Part shown: positions 19,309-23,637 of the stretch, one piece after another
Position numbering within the stretch: position 1 is the stretch's first letter
Layout of the letters: every line of letters starts with the position of its first letter
Virus record (IMG/VR): IMGVR_UViG_3300033141_006319
Coordinates: 1-33,286 of that record
Origin: a virus
Length of the DNA stretch: 33,286 nt
Reading direction: 5' to 3' (one strand)
Notes under the pieces: generated by a model
What the model was told of the DNA's origin: nothing
What the model saw: only the letters and a program-made list of their open reading frames with translations
The model's database searches: none
Made by a program: the position numbers and the translations under genes

Positions 19309-19318
19309 TTGGGGATTG

Positions 19319-19400
19319 AGGCTTCAGGGGTCAGGGGTCAGGCCTCCGATTCTGAAGCTCGAAGCCTGGACTGGAGCCTGAAGACTGACCCCTGAAGCCT
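19319..19400. repeat. Intergenic inverted-repeat element
   Basis: Perfect 16-bp arms, AGGCTTCAGGGGTCAG and its complement, flank a 50-base centre that itself holds GGGTCAGG, TCTGAAGC and AGCCTGAAG copies. It lies between the previous gene's stop and ATG 19406. The form (terminal inverted repeat, short, non-coding, built of TGACCCC/TGAAGCC words) is that of a REP or MITE-like repeat of the host. It could also fold into a hairpin controlling the next gene, which lacks a clear ribosome-binding site. Confidence 0.75.
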
Positions 19401-19405
19401 GCACC

Positions 19406-19603
19406 ATGGCCGAACCGCTCGACGACACCATCCGCGAGAACGCCCAAGGCCCCAAGCGGGCCTCGGGTGATGCTGGCAGCGTGGAACAACACGATCTGAA
19501 GGACCAGATCGAGGCGGACCGCTACCTGAACTCGAAGGAGGCGGCCAAGAAGAAGGGGATCGGAATCAAGATCACCCGGGCCATCCCCCACGGAACGGTC
19601 TGA
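19406..19603 (+). CDS. Small conserved protein before the portal gene
   Basis: A 65-residue protein ending in DQIEADRYLNSKEAAKKKGIGIKITRAIPHGTV. The last 30 residues form one basic helix plus strand and look like the conserved part. A lambda gpW-like head-joining role is possible by size and by place between terminase and portal, but the sequence is not convincing. ATG 19406 has no good ribosome-binding site because the inverted repeat ends six bases before it. It is followed by AGGCAGGAG of the portal gene. Confidence 0.65.
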   Translation: MAEPLDDTIRENAQGPKRASGDAGSVEQHDLKDQIEADRYLNSKEAAKKKGIGIKITRAIPHGTV

Positions 19604-19616
19604 GGCAGGAGCACGG

Positions 19617-21125
19617 ATGCTCAAGCGACTGATGGACAATCTGGCTGTACGCACGCAGCGTCATGGCACCGGCAAACGAGTCGCCGACGGTGCGCGCGTA
19701 CAGACGCCGGTATTTAGTCTCCGACCTCTCCGTGCCCGCTACGACGCCGCGGCGACCACGGACGGGAACCGTCGCCACTGGGCGAATGCGGACGGCCTCA
19801 GCGCCGACGCGGCCGCGAATCCCGACGTTCGGCGTGTGCTCCGCAACCGGGCCCGCTACGAGGTCGCCAACAACAGCTACGCCCGCGGGATCGTCTGCAC
19901 ACTGGCCAACGACGTCGTCGGGACCGGACCCCGCCTCCAGATGCTGACCGGTGATCCGGATGCCGACCGGCGGATCGAGATGGCCTTCGCTGACTGGGCA
20001 CGCACCGTCGGTCTCGCCGCCAAACTCCGCACCATGCGGATGGCGAGAGCGGAGTCAGGTGAGTGCTTCGCACTGCTCGCGCGCAATCCGCGCCATGGCT
20101 CCGCAGTCCAGCTTGATGTCCGACTGATCGAGGCTGATCAGGTTGCAACGCCTGACCTTCGCACCAACGAGCCGAAGGCGATCGATGGAATCGTCTTCGA
20201 CGAGTTCGGCAATCCGACCGAGTATCACGTGCTCAAACAGCACCCTGGCGACACGCGGTGGATGGCGCACCTGGAGTACGACCGGATCGACGCGGCGGTG
20301 ATGATCCACTACTTCCGCGCTGACCGCCCCGGCCTGAGTCGCGGCATTCCAGACATTACACCGGCGCTGCCGTTGTTCGCGCAGCTCCGCCGGTTCACAC
20401 TTGCCGTGATCAGTGCGGCCGAGACAGCCGCCGACTTCGCGGGCGTGCTCTACACCGATGCACCCGCCAACGGCGAAGCTGACGACGTCGAACCGATGGA
20501 TGCCATCGAACTCGAGCAGCGCATGCTGCTGACGATGCCGGGCGGCTGGAAGATGGCGCAGCTCAAGGCCGAGCAGCCGGCGACCACGTACGGCGACTTC
20601 AAGCACGAGATCCTCAACGAGATCGCCCGGTGCCTGAACATGCCGTTCAACGTCGCTGCGGGCAACTCATCGGGCTACAACTACGCCTCCGGTCGGCTCG
20701 ACCACCAGACGTACTTCAAGAGCATCCGAATCGAGCAGGCGCACATCGAGCGTGTCGTGCTCGATCGGATCTTTGACGCGTGGCTCGATGAAGCCGTGCT
20801 CGTTGAGCGTCTGCTGCCGCAATCAATGCGCATGCGCGGCGCCGATGTCCGGGGGCGGAAGCACCAGTGGTTCTGGGATGGCAACGAGCACGTCGATCCG
20901 GCGAAGGAGGCGAACGCGCAAGCAACCCGGCTCGACAGCCGGACGACATCACTCGCGCGTGAATACGCCCGCCAGGGACTCGACTGGGAAGCCGAGCTTC
21001 GACAGATCGCCAAGGAACGCGAGTTGATGAACACGCTCGGCATCCAGCCCACGGAAGGCTCCACCCCCGAAGGTGCCGTCCCTGTTGGAACAAAGGACGA
21101 AGACGATGACCCCCGGAACGACTGA
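19617..21125 (+). CDS. Portal protein, lambda family
   Basis: A 502-residue portal of the lambda gpB group (Phage_portal_2). Signals: LRNRARYEVANNSYARGIVCTLANDVVGTGPRLQML near residues 70-110, FADWARTVGLAAKL, SGECFALLARNP, the clip/stem region DRIDAAVMIHYFRADRPGLSRGIPDITPAL, and GGWKMAQLKAEQPATTYGDFKHEILNEIARCLNMPFNVAAGNSSGYNYASGR, the best conserved block. The protein would form the dodecameric ring through which DNA is packed and to which the neck binds. Ends with ERELMNTLGIQPTE and a polar tail. GGCAGGAG precedes ATG 19617. Its stop codon lies inside the next gene, a 20-base overlap. Confidence 0.93.
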   Translation: MLKRLMDNLAVRTQRHGTGKRVADGARVQTPVFSLRPLRARYDAAATTDGNRRHWANADGLSADAAANPDVRRVLRNRARYEVANNSYARGIVCTLANDVVGTGPRLQMLTGDPDADRRIEMAFADWARTVGLAAKLRTMRMARAESGECFALLARNPRHGSAVQLDVRLIEADQVATPDLRTNEPKAIDGIVFDEFGNPTEYHVLKQHPGDTRWMAHLEYDRIDAAVMIHYFRADRPGLSRGIPDITPALPLFAQLRRFTLAVISAAETAADFAGVLYTDAPANGEADDVEPMDAIELEQRMLLTMPGGWKMAQLKAEQPATTYGDFKHEILNEIARCLNMPFNVAAGNSSGYNYASGRLDHQTYFKSIRIEQAHIERVVLDRIFDAWLDEAVLVERLLPQSMRMRGADVRGRKHQWFWDGNEHVDPAKEANAQATRLDSRTTSLAREYARQGLDWEAELRQIAKERELMNTLGIQPTEGSTPEGAVPVGTKDEDDDPRND

Positions 21126-23169
21126 GACGCCTGACATCCTGGCGATCAACTGTGAAGTCGCGATCGAGGCTGCCGCATCCCCGAACGGTGATGGCGGCGG
21201 CGATGCACTTCCGAAGTTCTCGATGGTCGCCTACACCGGCGGTCCCATTCGCACACTCGGTTTCGCGTATCCGGTCGTCGTGAATCTCGACGGGATGAAG
21301 ATCCCCACCCAGCGCCGGCCGGTGCGATTCCAGCATTCCGCGTTCGAGGGCGTCGGACACACCGAGCGGATTGCAATCGAGGACGGCAAGCTCATCGCCG
21401 AGGGAGTCGTCTCGCGCGATACCGCGGCAGCGCAGGAGATCGTCGCCAGCGGGAAGAAGGGGTTCCCCTGGCAGGCCTCGATCGGCGCTTCAGTGGATGA
21501 GCTCGAGTTCATCAAGCGCGACGTCGCCGTGACGGTGAACGGCCGGAAGTTCACCGGCCCGATCTACATCGCCCACAAGACCACACTCAACGAAATCAGC
21601 TTCGTCGATCTCGGCGCCGATCAGAAGACGCGAGCCCGAATCGCAGCGCAGCATCATGAGGAGACACAGGCCATGCCTGAGCACCAGAAGGATCAGGACA
21701 ACGTGGCGGCGACCGACGACACGTCGAAGAACGATGCCGCCGAGATCGAGGCAAGCCAGCCGACCCCGGCACGTCGCACCAGTCACATCCACGCCACCGA
21801 CCCCGCCGCCGAGATCGATCAGATCACGGCACGCGCCCGGGCCGAATCCGAGCGCCGCCAGCGCATCCAGGAGATGACGGCCGAGGTCCTCGCGCAGCGC
21901 CCGGAGCTGGCCGACGATCTGGGCAAGCTGGCCCACGCCGCGCTCGAGGCGGGCTGGAAGCCGGACAAGTACCAACTCGAGGTCATGCGCCTCAGCCGGT
22001 CGTACAACGGTATCGGTGGTCCGCGGTCGCAGAGCGATCGAATCGAGGGATCGATCATCGAAGCTGCGCTGTGCATCGCGGGCGGGCTCGACTCCGACGT
22101 GCTCGAAGCGCAGTTCAACGAGCGAACGCTGGACGCGGCCAACCGGCAGTATCGCCACGGGCTGGGCCTCTGTGACACACTGCTGATCTTCGCGCAGGCC
22201 AATGGCTATCGTGGCATCAGCCGCGGCAATCTGAAGGACCTGCTTCAGTTCGCGTTCTCCGATGTCCAGGCATCCGGCTTCAGCACGCTGAGCCTTCCGG
22301 GCATTCTGAGCAACGTCGCCAATAAGTTCCTCCGCGCCGGCTTCGATGCGGTCGAATCGACCTGGCGTGACATCGCTGCGATCCGCTCGGTGCGTGACTT
22401 CAAGCAGGTCTCCAGCTACTCGCTCACCGGCGGCTTCGTCTACGAGGAGATCCCGCCCGGTGGTGAGCTCAAGCACGCAACGGTGGGCGAGACGGCGTAC
22501 ACGAACCAGGCCAAGACCTACGGCCGGATGTTCGGCATCGATCGTCGCGATCTCATCAACGACGATCTTGATGCGCTGACGGCCGTCCCGCGTCGCCTCG
22601 GTCGCGGCGGAGCGCTCAAGCTCAACGAGGTCTTCTGGAGCACGTTCCTCAACAACGCGACCTTCTTCACCGCGGCCAACAACAACTACGCCGAGGGTGT
22701 GGACACCGCGCTGGGCATCGATGCGCTCACGCAGGCTGAGACGATGTTCCTCGATCAGACCGACCCCGACGGCCATCCGCTTGCGGTGGCGCCGGTGATC
22801 CTGCTCGTGCCGAACGCGCTGTACGTGCCGGCGACGCAGATCATGAACTCGACGGAGCTGCGCGACCCGGCTTCCACGAAGAAGACGCCCGTCGCCAACC
22901 CGCACGCGGGGAAGTTCCGGCCGGTCCGCTCGAGCTACCTGAGCAACCCCAAGTACACCGGCAACTCCACGAAGGCGTGGTACGTCCTCGCGGACCCGAG
23001 CGACATGCCCGTCATCGAGGTCGCGTTCCTCAACGGCCAGCAGCAGCCGACCGTCGAAAGTGCCGACGCCGACTTCAACAACCTCGGCATCCAGATGCGC
23101 GGCTACCACGACTTCGGATGTGCACTTCAGGAACCCCGCGGTGGCGTCCGCATGAAGGGAGAAGCGTAA
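21106..23169 (+). CDS. Prohead protease fused to major capsid protein (Mu gpT-like)
   Basis: A 687-residue fusion. Residues about 25-190 are a prohead protease of the S78 type: RPVRFQHSAFEGVGHTERIAI, then ATG...GFPWQASIGASVDELEF with the catalytic-type Ser, and the typical end NEISFVDLGADQKTRARI. A scaffold-like, charged region follows (about 195-300, EAQAMPEHQKDQDNV to EMTAEVLAQRPEL). Residues about 370-687 are the shell domain related to Mu gpT: VYEEIPPGGELKHATVGETAYTNQAKTYGRMFGIDRRDLINDDL and FWSTFLNN. So protease, scaffold and capsid come from one polypeptide, presumably cut by the protease. ATG 21106 is in TGACCCCCGGAA; AAAGGA precedes it. TAA at 23167. Confidence 0.88.
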   Translation: MTPGTTETPDILAINCEVAIEAAASPNGDGGGDALPKFSMVAYTGGPIRTLGFAYPVVVNLDGMKIPTQRRPVRFQHSAFEGVGHTERIAIEDGKLIAEGVVSRDTAAAQEIVASGKKGFPWQASIGASVDELEFIKRDVAVTVNGRKFTGPIYIAHKTTLNEISFVDLGADQKTRARIAAQHHEETQAMPEHQKDQDNVAATDDTSKNDAAEIEASQPTPARRTSHIHATDPAAEIDQITARARAESERRQRIQEMTAEVLAQRPELADDLGKLAHAALEAGWKPDKYQLEVMRLSRSYNGIGGPRSQSDRIEGSIIEAALCIAGGLDSDVLEAQFNERTLDAANRQYRHGLGLCDTLLIFAQANGYRGISRGNLKDLLQFAFSDVQASGFSTLSLPGILSNVANKFLRAGFDAVESTWRDIAAIRSVRDFKQVSSYSLTGGFVYEEIPPGGELKHATVGETAYTNQAKTYGRMFGIDRRDLINDDLDALTAVPRRLGRGGALKLNEVFWSTFLNNATFFTAANNNYAEGVDTALGIDALTQAETMFLDQTDPDGHPLAVAPVILLVPNALYVPATQIMNSTELRDPASTKKTPVANPHAGKFRPVRSSYLSNPKYTGNSTKAWYVLADPSDMPVIEVAFLNGQQQPTVESADADFNNLGIQMRGYHDFGCALQEPRGGVRMKGEA
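21107..21118 (+). repeat. Dispersed motif TGACCCCCGGAA at a start codon
   Basis: Starts at the T of ATG 21106 and encodes T-P-G-T of the protease-capsid N-terminus. The identical 12-mer is found at 3581 as a stop codon and at 26123 as a start. Confidence 0.7.
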
Positions 23170-23190: not shown

Positions 23191-23197
23191 GAACTGA

Positions 23198-23270
23198 CGC
23201 GGGCGGCAGGGCCTGGTGGTCCGGTTGGGCTCATATCCCAGCGTTGAGGGTTCGATTCCCTCGCCCGCAA
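23198..23270 (+). tRNA. Phage tRNA with CAT anticodon, initiator (fMet)-like
   Basis: A cloverleaf of 73 bases: acceptor CGCGGGC against GCCCGCA, anticodon stem TTGGG/CCCAG around CTCATAT with CAT at 23232-23234, T-arm GAGGG-TTCGATT-CCCTC, discriminator A23270, no CCA. Two initiator marks are present: the first base pair is C-A mismatched, and the anticodon stem has three G-C pairs stacked next to the loop. The D-arm region follows the fMet pattern (CCTGGT) with A11 opposite C24, which does not pair. Position 8 is G instead of U, and the variable loop is four bases. So it is probably a diverged initiator tRNA; an elongator Met or Ile2 tRNA is the alternative. Confidence 0.8.
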
Positions 23271-23298
23271 TTCCCGAACCGAATCAGGAGAACCATCA

Positions 23299-23637
23299 AT
23301 GGCAACGTACATCCATGAAGGCAGCGCGATCGACTACACGCCCACCGCAGACGTGAGCGCGGGCGACGTGATCGTGCAGAACGAACTCGTCGGCGTCGCC
23401 AAGCTCGACATCCCGGCGGGCACGCTCGGTGCCCTGAGCGTCGCGGGCGTCTTCGACTTCCCGAAGGCGACCGGCGTCGGCACGGCGATCGACGCCGGGC
23501 TGGACCTGTATTGGGATGCCGCGGCCCTGGAAGCGACGACCGATCCGGGCTCCGGTTCGGTCAACAAGGCAATCGGCCGCAGCGTCGCCGATGCCGGCGA
23601 CAACGACGCAACCGTACGCGTGCGGATGGACCAGTAG
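23299..23637 (+). CDS. DUF2190-type capsid cement protein
   Basis: A 112-residue protein with the DUF2190 pattern: AIDYTPTADVSAGDVIVQNELVGVAKLDIPAGTLGALSVAGVFDFPKA, then GLDLYWDAAALEATTD and GRSVADAGDNDATVRVRMDQ. This family is placed beside capsid genes in many siphoviruses and was shown in some to stabilise the shell as a cement or decoration protein. It is small, beta-rich and without Cys. CAGGAG precedes ATG 23299. It comes directly after the tRNA, so transcription through the tRNA must continue into it or restart. Confidence 0.85.
   Translation: MATYIHEGSAIDYTPTADVSAGDVIVQNELVGVAKLDIPAGTLGALSVAGVFDFPKATGVGTAIDAGLDLYWDAAALEATTDPGSGSVNKAIGRSVADAGDNDATVRVRMDQ

Follow-up and report, generated by a model that had tools for sequence, protein, structure and literature searches.

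An initiator-type tRNA between the capsid and cement genes of a virus of Planctomycetota

Introduction

A tRNA gene with the marks of an initiator, set among the head genes of a virus, raises the question of what kind of tRNA it is and whether it is likely to work as one. We address this for positions 23198-23270 of a single virus record of 33,286 bases, the whole of which is referred to here as the window.

Results

Anatomy and genomic position of the element

ARAGORN reported two tRNAs in the window, tRNA-Arg(TCT) at 819-893 and tRNA-Met(CAT) at 23199-23269; one base was added on each side of the latter, which restored positions 1 and 73. The element and its neighbors are as follows.

21073-23169, + strand: gene of a fused head maturation protease/major capsid protein (698 aa; PHROG 4523/133, PF25209), its stop 28 nt before the tRNA
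23198-23270, + strand: initiator-type tRNA(CAU), positions 1-73; acceptor 23198-23204/23263-23269, C1/A72 unpaired, discriminator A at 23270
23209-23222, + strand: reduced D-arm (predicted fold); 5-bp stem GGGCC/GGUCC, 4-nt loop UGGU, G18G19 kept, no U8
23225-23241, + strand: anticodon arm UUGGG-CUCAUAU-CCCAG with three G-C pairs; CAU at 23232-23234; A37 and U38 (A37 and A38 in hosts)
23246-23262, + strand: T-arm GAGGG-UUCGAUU-CCCUC; stem 23246-23250/23258-23262
23286-23290, + strand: Shine-Dalgarno-like AGGAG of the cement gene (from sequence), past the end of the tRNA and ahead of the ATG
23299-23637, + strand: gene of a head decoration (cement) protein (PHROG 122, PF09956), its ATG 28 nt past the tRNA

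A preliminary description of this DNA had called the element a tRNA with anticodon CAT, a C1-A72 mismatch, and three G-C pairs in the anticodon stem, and both ARAGORN and pairing by hand agree with it: the stem holds G29G30G31:C39C40C41, and U33, CAU, and A73 are present. As it also held, the T-arm fixes the 3′ acceptor strand, so that CGCGGGC (23198-23204) faces GCCCGCA (23263-23269) over 6 bp (2:71 to 7:66) with C1/A72 unpaired. The strands of the predicted D-stem are 23209-23213 and 23218-23222, the variable loop is 4 nt, and CCA is not encoded after 23270, as is likewise the case for host initiators. A chance fold was rejected on the basis of the folding energy (−37.7 kcal/mol compared with a shuffle mean of −30, z −2.3), the initiator covariance score, and the 72/73 identity with the phage contig L083 (see below). 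The described placement between the capsid and cement genes was borne out by the PHROG and Pfam matches and the 28-nt gap on either side; no promoter was found near the tRNA. The dispersed motif said to stand in front of the tRNA could not be substantiated, as neither CCCGGAAGTGAACTGA nor CGGAAACACCCGGAA has another copy beyond what chance would give.

The element scores as an initiator

Using Planctomycetota genomes, we built two covariance models, one from eight distinct host initiators and one from eight distinct host elongator CAU tRNAs. The host initiator model scored the window element at 45.9 bits (E 1e-8) with ends exactly at 23198-23270, and the elongator model scored it at 25 bits (default) to 28.5 bits (filters off), a lead of about 17-20 bits, of which only the direction and size count because both models are small. 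The control tRNA-Arg behaved in the opposite manner (58 bits with the initiator model and 81 with the elongator model), and 20 of the 21 other phage elements scored by both models were higher as initiators, the exception being L041. Host initiators carry U1/U72 (13/14) or C/C (1/14), whereas the host elongators in the same alignment output are all paired at 1:72. We thus rejected elongator tRNA-Met and tRNA-Ile2, given the unpaired 1:72 and the lower elongator score, and the initiator type proposed in the preliminary description held; no host elongator was closer as a source.

An open 1:72 position followed by G2-C71, C3-G70, and G4-C69 constitutes the determinants for methionyl-tRNA formyltransferase, CAU and A73 serve MetRS, and the G-C pairs of the anticodon stem serve selection in the P site. 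Host tRNA-fMet of Planctomycetota resembles the window element in all of these features, as well as in the missing CCA, and differs from it in having U1/U72, the loop CUCAUAA, and a normal D-arm, compared with C1/A72, CUCAUAU, G8, and a 4-nt D-loop in the window.

The D-arm is rebuilt rather than damaged

With the Rfam tRNA model (RF00005), the window element scored 21.4 bits and did not reach the gathering score of 29, whereas relatives such as L050 reach 60.8 bits. Its best Rfam match was tRNA-Sec, at 39.3 bits compared with a gathering score of 47; we rejected this assignment, as there is no long variable arm, the anticodon is CAU and not UCA, and the likeness is limited to the D-arm. These scores indicate that the element is diverged, as the preliminary description had thought possible. 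It had also pointed to G8 and a broken A11-C24 pair. The former is real, and U8 is absent; the latter arises from forcing a normal D-stem on an arm of 5 bp, since a canonical D-stem with a purine 11:pyrimidine 24 pair was not found and A11 is unpaired in the predicted fold. The same 5-bp D-stem, with covarying pairs (AGGCC/GGUCU and AGGCC/GGCCU), occurs in initiator-type tRNAs of two planctomycete arrays (L216 and L217), and D-arms are also shortened in the phage relatives L048, L049, and L065. The predicted arm is therefore rebuilt rather than damaged, and the rebuilt arm, which is like that of tRNA-Sec, and the missing U8 explain why the scores fall below threshold and why tRNA-Sec is the best match.

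A near-identical copy in L083 and a second site in related phages

We gathered relatives with the capsid protein of the window, obtaining 80 viral loci and 80 loci in bacterial assemblies, most of the latter labeled Planctomycetota and many of those Phycisphaerae; the window belongs to a virus of Planctomycetota bacteria. Among these relatives, the capsid-cement gap holds a tRNA in the window and L083 only, and a pattern search for the window element likewise found L083 only. The L083 tRNA has the same flanking genes and is identical at 72 of 73 positions, the sole change (A72 to T72) leaving 1:72 mismatched, whereas identity is 87% over the final 880 nt of the capsid gene, 79% in the cement gene, and 43% and 57% in the two spacers. 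Such identity would result if selection is strong or if the tRNA was exchanged recently, and both explanations argue against a decaying relic. A further initiator tRNA in L083, of host type, lies 2 kb upstream of the phage copy and ~1.1 kb before the truncated capsid gene. The capsid genes of L012, L020, and L083 break off, or have a replaced C terminus, where they join unrelated sequence, which could reflect a chimaera, a rearrangement, or a decayed prophage. The capsid-cement gap of some relatives holds other palindromic repeats.

A tRNA-like element was found between the terminase and portal genes, ~3.6-4.5 kb before the end of the capsid gene, in 28 of the 119 related phages and prophages covering that site, one in each. 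Most of these elements directly precede a conserved gene of ~65 aa without a PHROG match, and their 3′ ends lie mostly 13-17 nt (range 3 to 73 nt) from the next start codon. The carriers are scattered over the capsid (MCP) tree, and gain and loss are therefore frequent. The nearest relatives of the window have no such tRNA in the flanks examined; in the window itself, the terminase-portal gap (19309-19410) contains no tRNA and is occupied by an inverted repeat at 19319-19400 with 25-nt arms (AGGCTTCAGGGGTCAGGGGTCAGGC).

Initiator determinants persist in otherwise diverged bodies

To describe what is conserved, we surveyed 28 distinct elements, which fall into 11 sequence groups at 80% identity. 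Pairs 2:71 to 6:67 are formed in 140 of 140 cases, and 1:72 is unpaired in 25 of the 28 elements through six different mismatches (G/A, A/G, C/U, C/A, A/A, and C/C). A73 and U33 are each present in 26/28, as is an intact CAU, a count to be read with the bias of the survey model (R1), which was trained on CAU elements; ARAGORN, which is free of this bias, gave CAU for all its upstream-site tRNAs but that of L054 (its hits in L106 and L157 lie elsewhere). The two CAU exceptions are L054, in which the loop is replaced, and L065, in which CAU is one base out of register in the alignment. In the relatives, 31:39 is G-C or C-G and 29:41 is sometimes U-A. CAU and the open 1:72 persist in the structurally reduced copies L048, L049, L082/L131, and L120, of which L082/L131 and L120 have altered T-loops (UGCAACU and UACGACA, respectively). 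In a single case (L157:6225-6290), there is apparently no D-arm and the discriminator is G, with CAU, a GCGGG acceptor, and the T-arm kept. Further, L044:4016-4094 and L054:520-601 are copies broken by palindromic insertions in the T-arm and the anticodon loop, respectively, which indicates that the tRNA is dispensable at least sometimes. Overall, change has reached the D-arm, position 8, and even the T-loop but has spared the initiator determinants, as would be expected of a working initiator.

A structured RNA precedes many of the upstream-site elements

A conserved domain of ~120 nt lies ahead of the upstream site in 15 of the 28 carriers and 3 of the 91 non-carriers:

L050, 838-961: structured RNA in a carrier; equivalents in the carriers L037, L038, L041, L047, L049, L065, L080, L082, L100, L103, L114, L120, L131, and L157
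L094, L108, and L113: structured RNA, no tRNA

Its 5′ GACAACC pairs with GGUUGUC just before the tRNA, and it further contains a hairpin with a CUGAUCC loop and a terminator-like hairpin with a U-run. Some of its pairs covary: in 12 of the 25 consensus pairs, both partners have changed. The domain has no match in Rfam, is absent from the window, and may act as an attenuator of the phage head genes.

Origin and nearest known systems

Among 294 planctomycete genomes, we found two close matches to the window tRNA, L216 and L217, both in arrays of 17 tRNAs. The window tRNA is 74-75% identical to these and 68% or less (about 63-68%) to host initiators, from which we infer an origin on a mobile element. 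The array tRNAs share with the window tRNA the short D-arm, the acceptor GCGGG(C/U), and CAU, and differ from it in their array setting, their encoded CCA, and their A37A38. L191, L216, and L217 contain dense arrays of many divergent tRNAs, some with unusual T-loops (GGTGCGA). tRNA arrays on mobile elements have been discussed as putatively antidefensive (PMC12803027).

The preliminary description was fair in stating that most tRNAs encoded by phages are elongators, but 345-400 phage records contain matches to initiator-like tRNA-Met, and the class is therefore not new. Phage tRNA-Met or tRNA-fMet genes (e.g. in Caulobacter, Streptomyces, and Mycobacterium phages) have initiator-like sequences, as in the window; the two Streptomyces phage cases we examined lie within tRNA clusters, in contrast to the lone tRNA in the head-gene operon of the window. 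Erythrobacter phage ZS04 (PV416405.1 8406-8482; L210:4001-4077) offers a partial parallel in a different phage, with an unannotated, CCA-encoding initiator-like tRNA in the gap between the terminase large subunit and portal genes. In the open-access literature, we came across no account of an initiator tRNA standing alone within the head-gene operon of a phage. The new features here are the fixed sites in the late operon, the reduced forms, and the structured, terminator-bearing RNA beside many of them.

Discussion

The evidence suggests that the virus brings its own initiator tRNA for late infection. Judged from sequence, the element looks more like a working initiator than like a relic, an attachment site, or a pure processing signal. 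Building on its anatomy, its initiator-type scores, the conservation of determinants across relatives, and its genomic position, we consider that it is probably, if with no great assurance, a working, diverged initiator tRNA that is cut from the late capsid mRNA, charged, formylated, and supplied to initiation. Because no promoter of its own was seen, the tRNA would be transcribed as part of the late capsid mRNA. Host enzymes would then excise it, RNase P at 23197/23198 and tRNase Z after 23270, leaving both reading frames and the Shine-Dalgarno sequence of the cement gene intact. After addition of CCA, the tRNA would be charged with methionine via the CAU anticodon and A73 and, because 1:72 is open, could be formylated. 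The supply of initiator tRNA would thereby keep in step with capsid mRNA. Weighing against this reading are the missing U8 and nonstandard D-arm of the window copy, its sub-threshold Rfam tRNA score, the patchy carriage among relatives, and the broken copies.

The tRNA fold might instead serve as punctuation, i.e. as a cleavage signal that separates the capsid and cement (or terminase and portal) messages and sets up a short leader, and is never charged. The 28-nt gaps on both sides with a Shine-Dalgarno sequence in the 3′ one, the short distance at which a start codon follows the 3′ end in relatives (13-17 nt in most, as little as 3 nt), the persistence of elbow and acceptor as the D-arm shrinks, and L054, which has kept its acceptor, D-, and T-arms around a rebuilt anticodon loop, would all fit such a signal. 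However, cleavage requires neither CAU and U33 nor an open 1:72, and CAU is kept in 26/28 elements and the 1:72 mismatch in 25/28, which leads us to regard punctuation as unlikely. We think it somewhat less likely again that the tRNA is selfish or neutral cargo from mobile tRNA arrays, drifting among tolerated intergenic sites without benefit. Its patchy, scattered carriage on the MCP tree, the two different sites, the broken copies in L044 and L054, and the array-type relatives are in keeping with cargo; the 72/73 identity compared with the diverged spacers, and the retention, time and again, of initiator determinants in elements that have otherwise diverged, are not.

A further proposal, that the unexcised element acts in cis by drawing the initiation machinery to the next start codon, draws on how close that codon is (3-28 nt in many cases), but that distance is not constant (3 to 73 nt) and an ordinary Shine-Dalgarno sequence accompanies most copies; we know of no phage precedent for such a mimic and consider it very improbable. 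The least probable of these readings is that the element is an integration site, duplicating host tRNA-fMet in the manner of an attP. Attachment at tRNA genes is common, usually with the tRNA directly before the integrase, and L083 has a host-type initiator tRNA as well. In the window, however, the integrase (1008-2189) adjoins the tRNA-Arg (819-892 or 819-893), and the Met element lies amid capsid genes 21 kb away, is just 63% identical to host initiators, and ends in a 3′ sequence that is not repeated elsewhere in the window. The integration role raised in the preliminary description is thus not upheld.

If the element is indeed a working initiator tRNA, its loop may bear on host defense. 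In enteric bacteria, VapC cleaves initiator tRNA at the A38-C39 junction (PMC4105405), and the loops of phage tRNAs are often altered close to where nucleases cut (PMC10264068). Every host initiator has an A at position 38 (A37A38), compared with C in 18, U in 2, and A in 6 of the 28 phage elements. Taken together, these observations make it plausible that the altered loop (37/38) evades nucleases, and the change at position 38 (U in the window, mostly C in the other phages) would make the tRNA insensitive to VapC-type cuts after A38. The window tRNA resembles nuclease-evading phage tRNAs (PMC10264068) in that its loop departs from that of the host tRNA close to the cleavage site. Contrary to the evasion prediction, L050 and L048 keep the host-like loop CUCAUAA. 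Further, one study found that phages as a rule refrain from encoding tRNA-fMet, which VapC-LT2 targets (PMC10264068), whereas initiators are encoded here. Counts of PIN domains, 2-34 in seven hosts of tRNA-carrying prophages compared with 0-2 in five hosts whose prophages have none, were given no weight, as genome size and phylogeny are uncontrolled and PIN is far broader than VapC.

A bolder and rather doubtful extension is that phages of planctomycetes have time after time placed one structurally reduced initiator tRNA at set positions in the late operon to serve as a dedicated anti-defense initiator, in some lineages under an upstream, terminator-bearing RNA switch. If this were true, the reduced D-arms, the altered T-loops, and the seemingly D-armless copy would amount to the most minimal of all initiator tRNAs known from bacteria or phages. 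If these tRNAs are functional, phages would supply initiation, the step on which all translation depends, from within their capsid mRNA; this would provide direct evidence that phage and host contend for initiator tRNA as a resource, and the reduced copies that keep their determinants would be natural tests of the minimum that an initiator tRNA needs.
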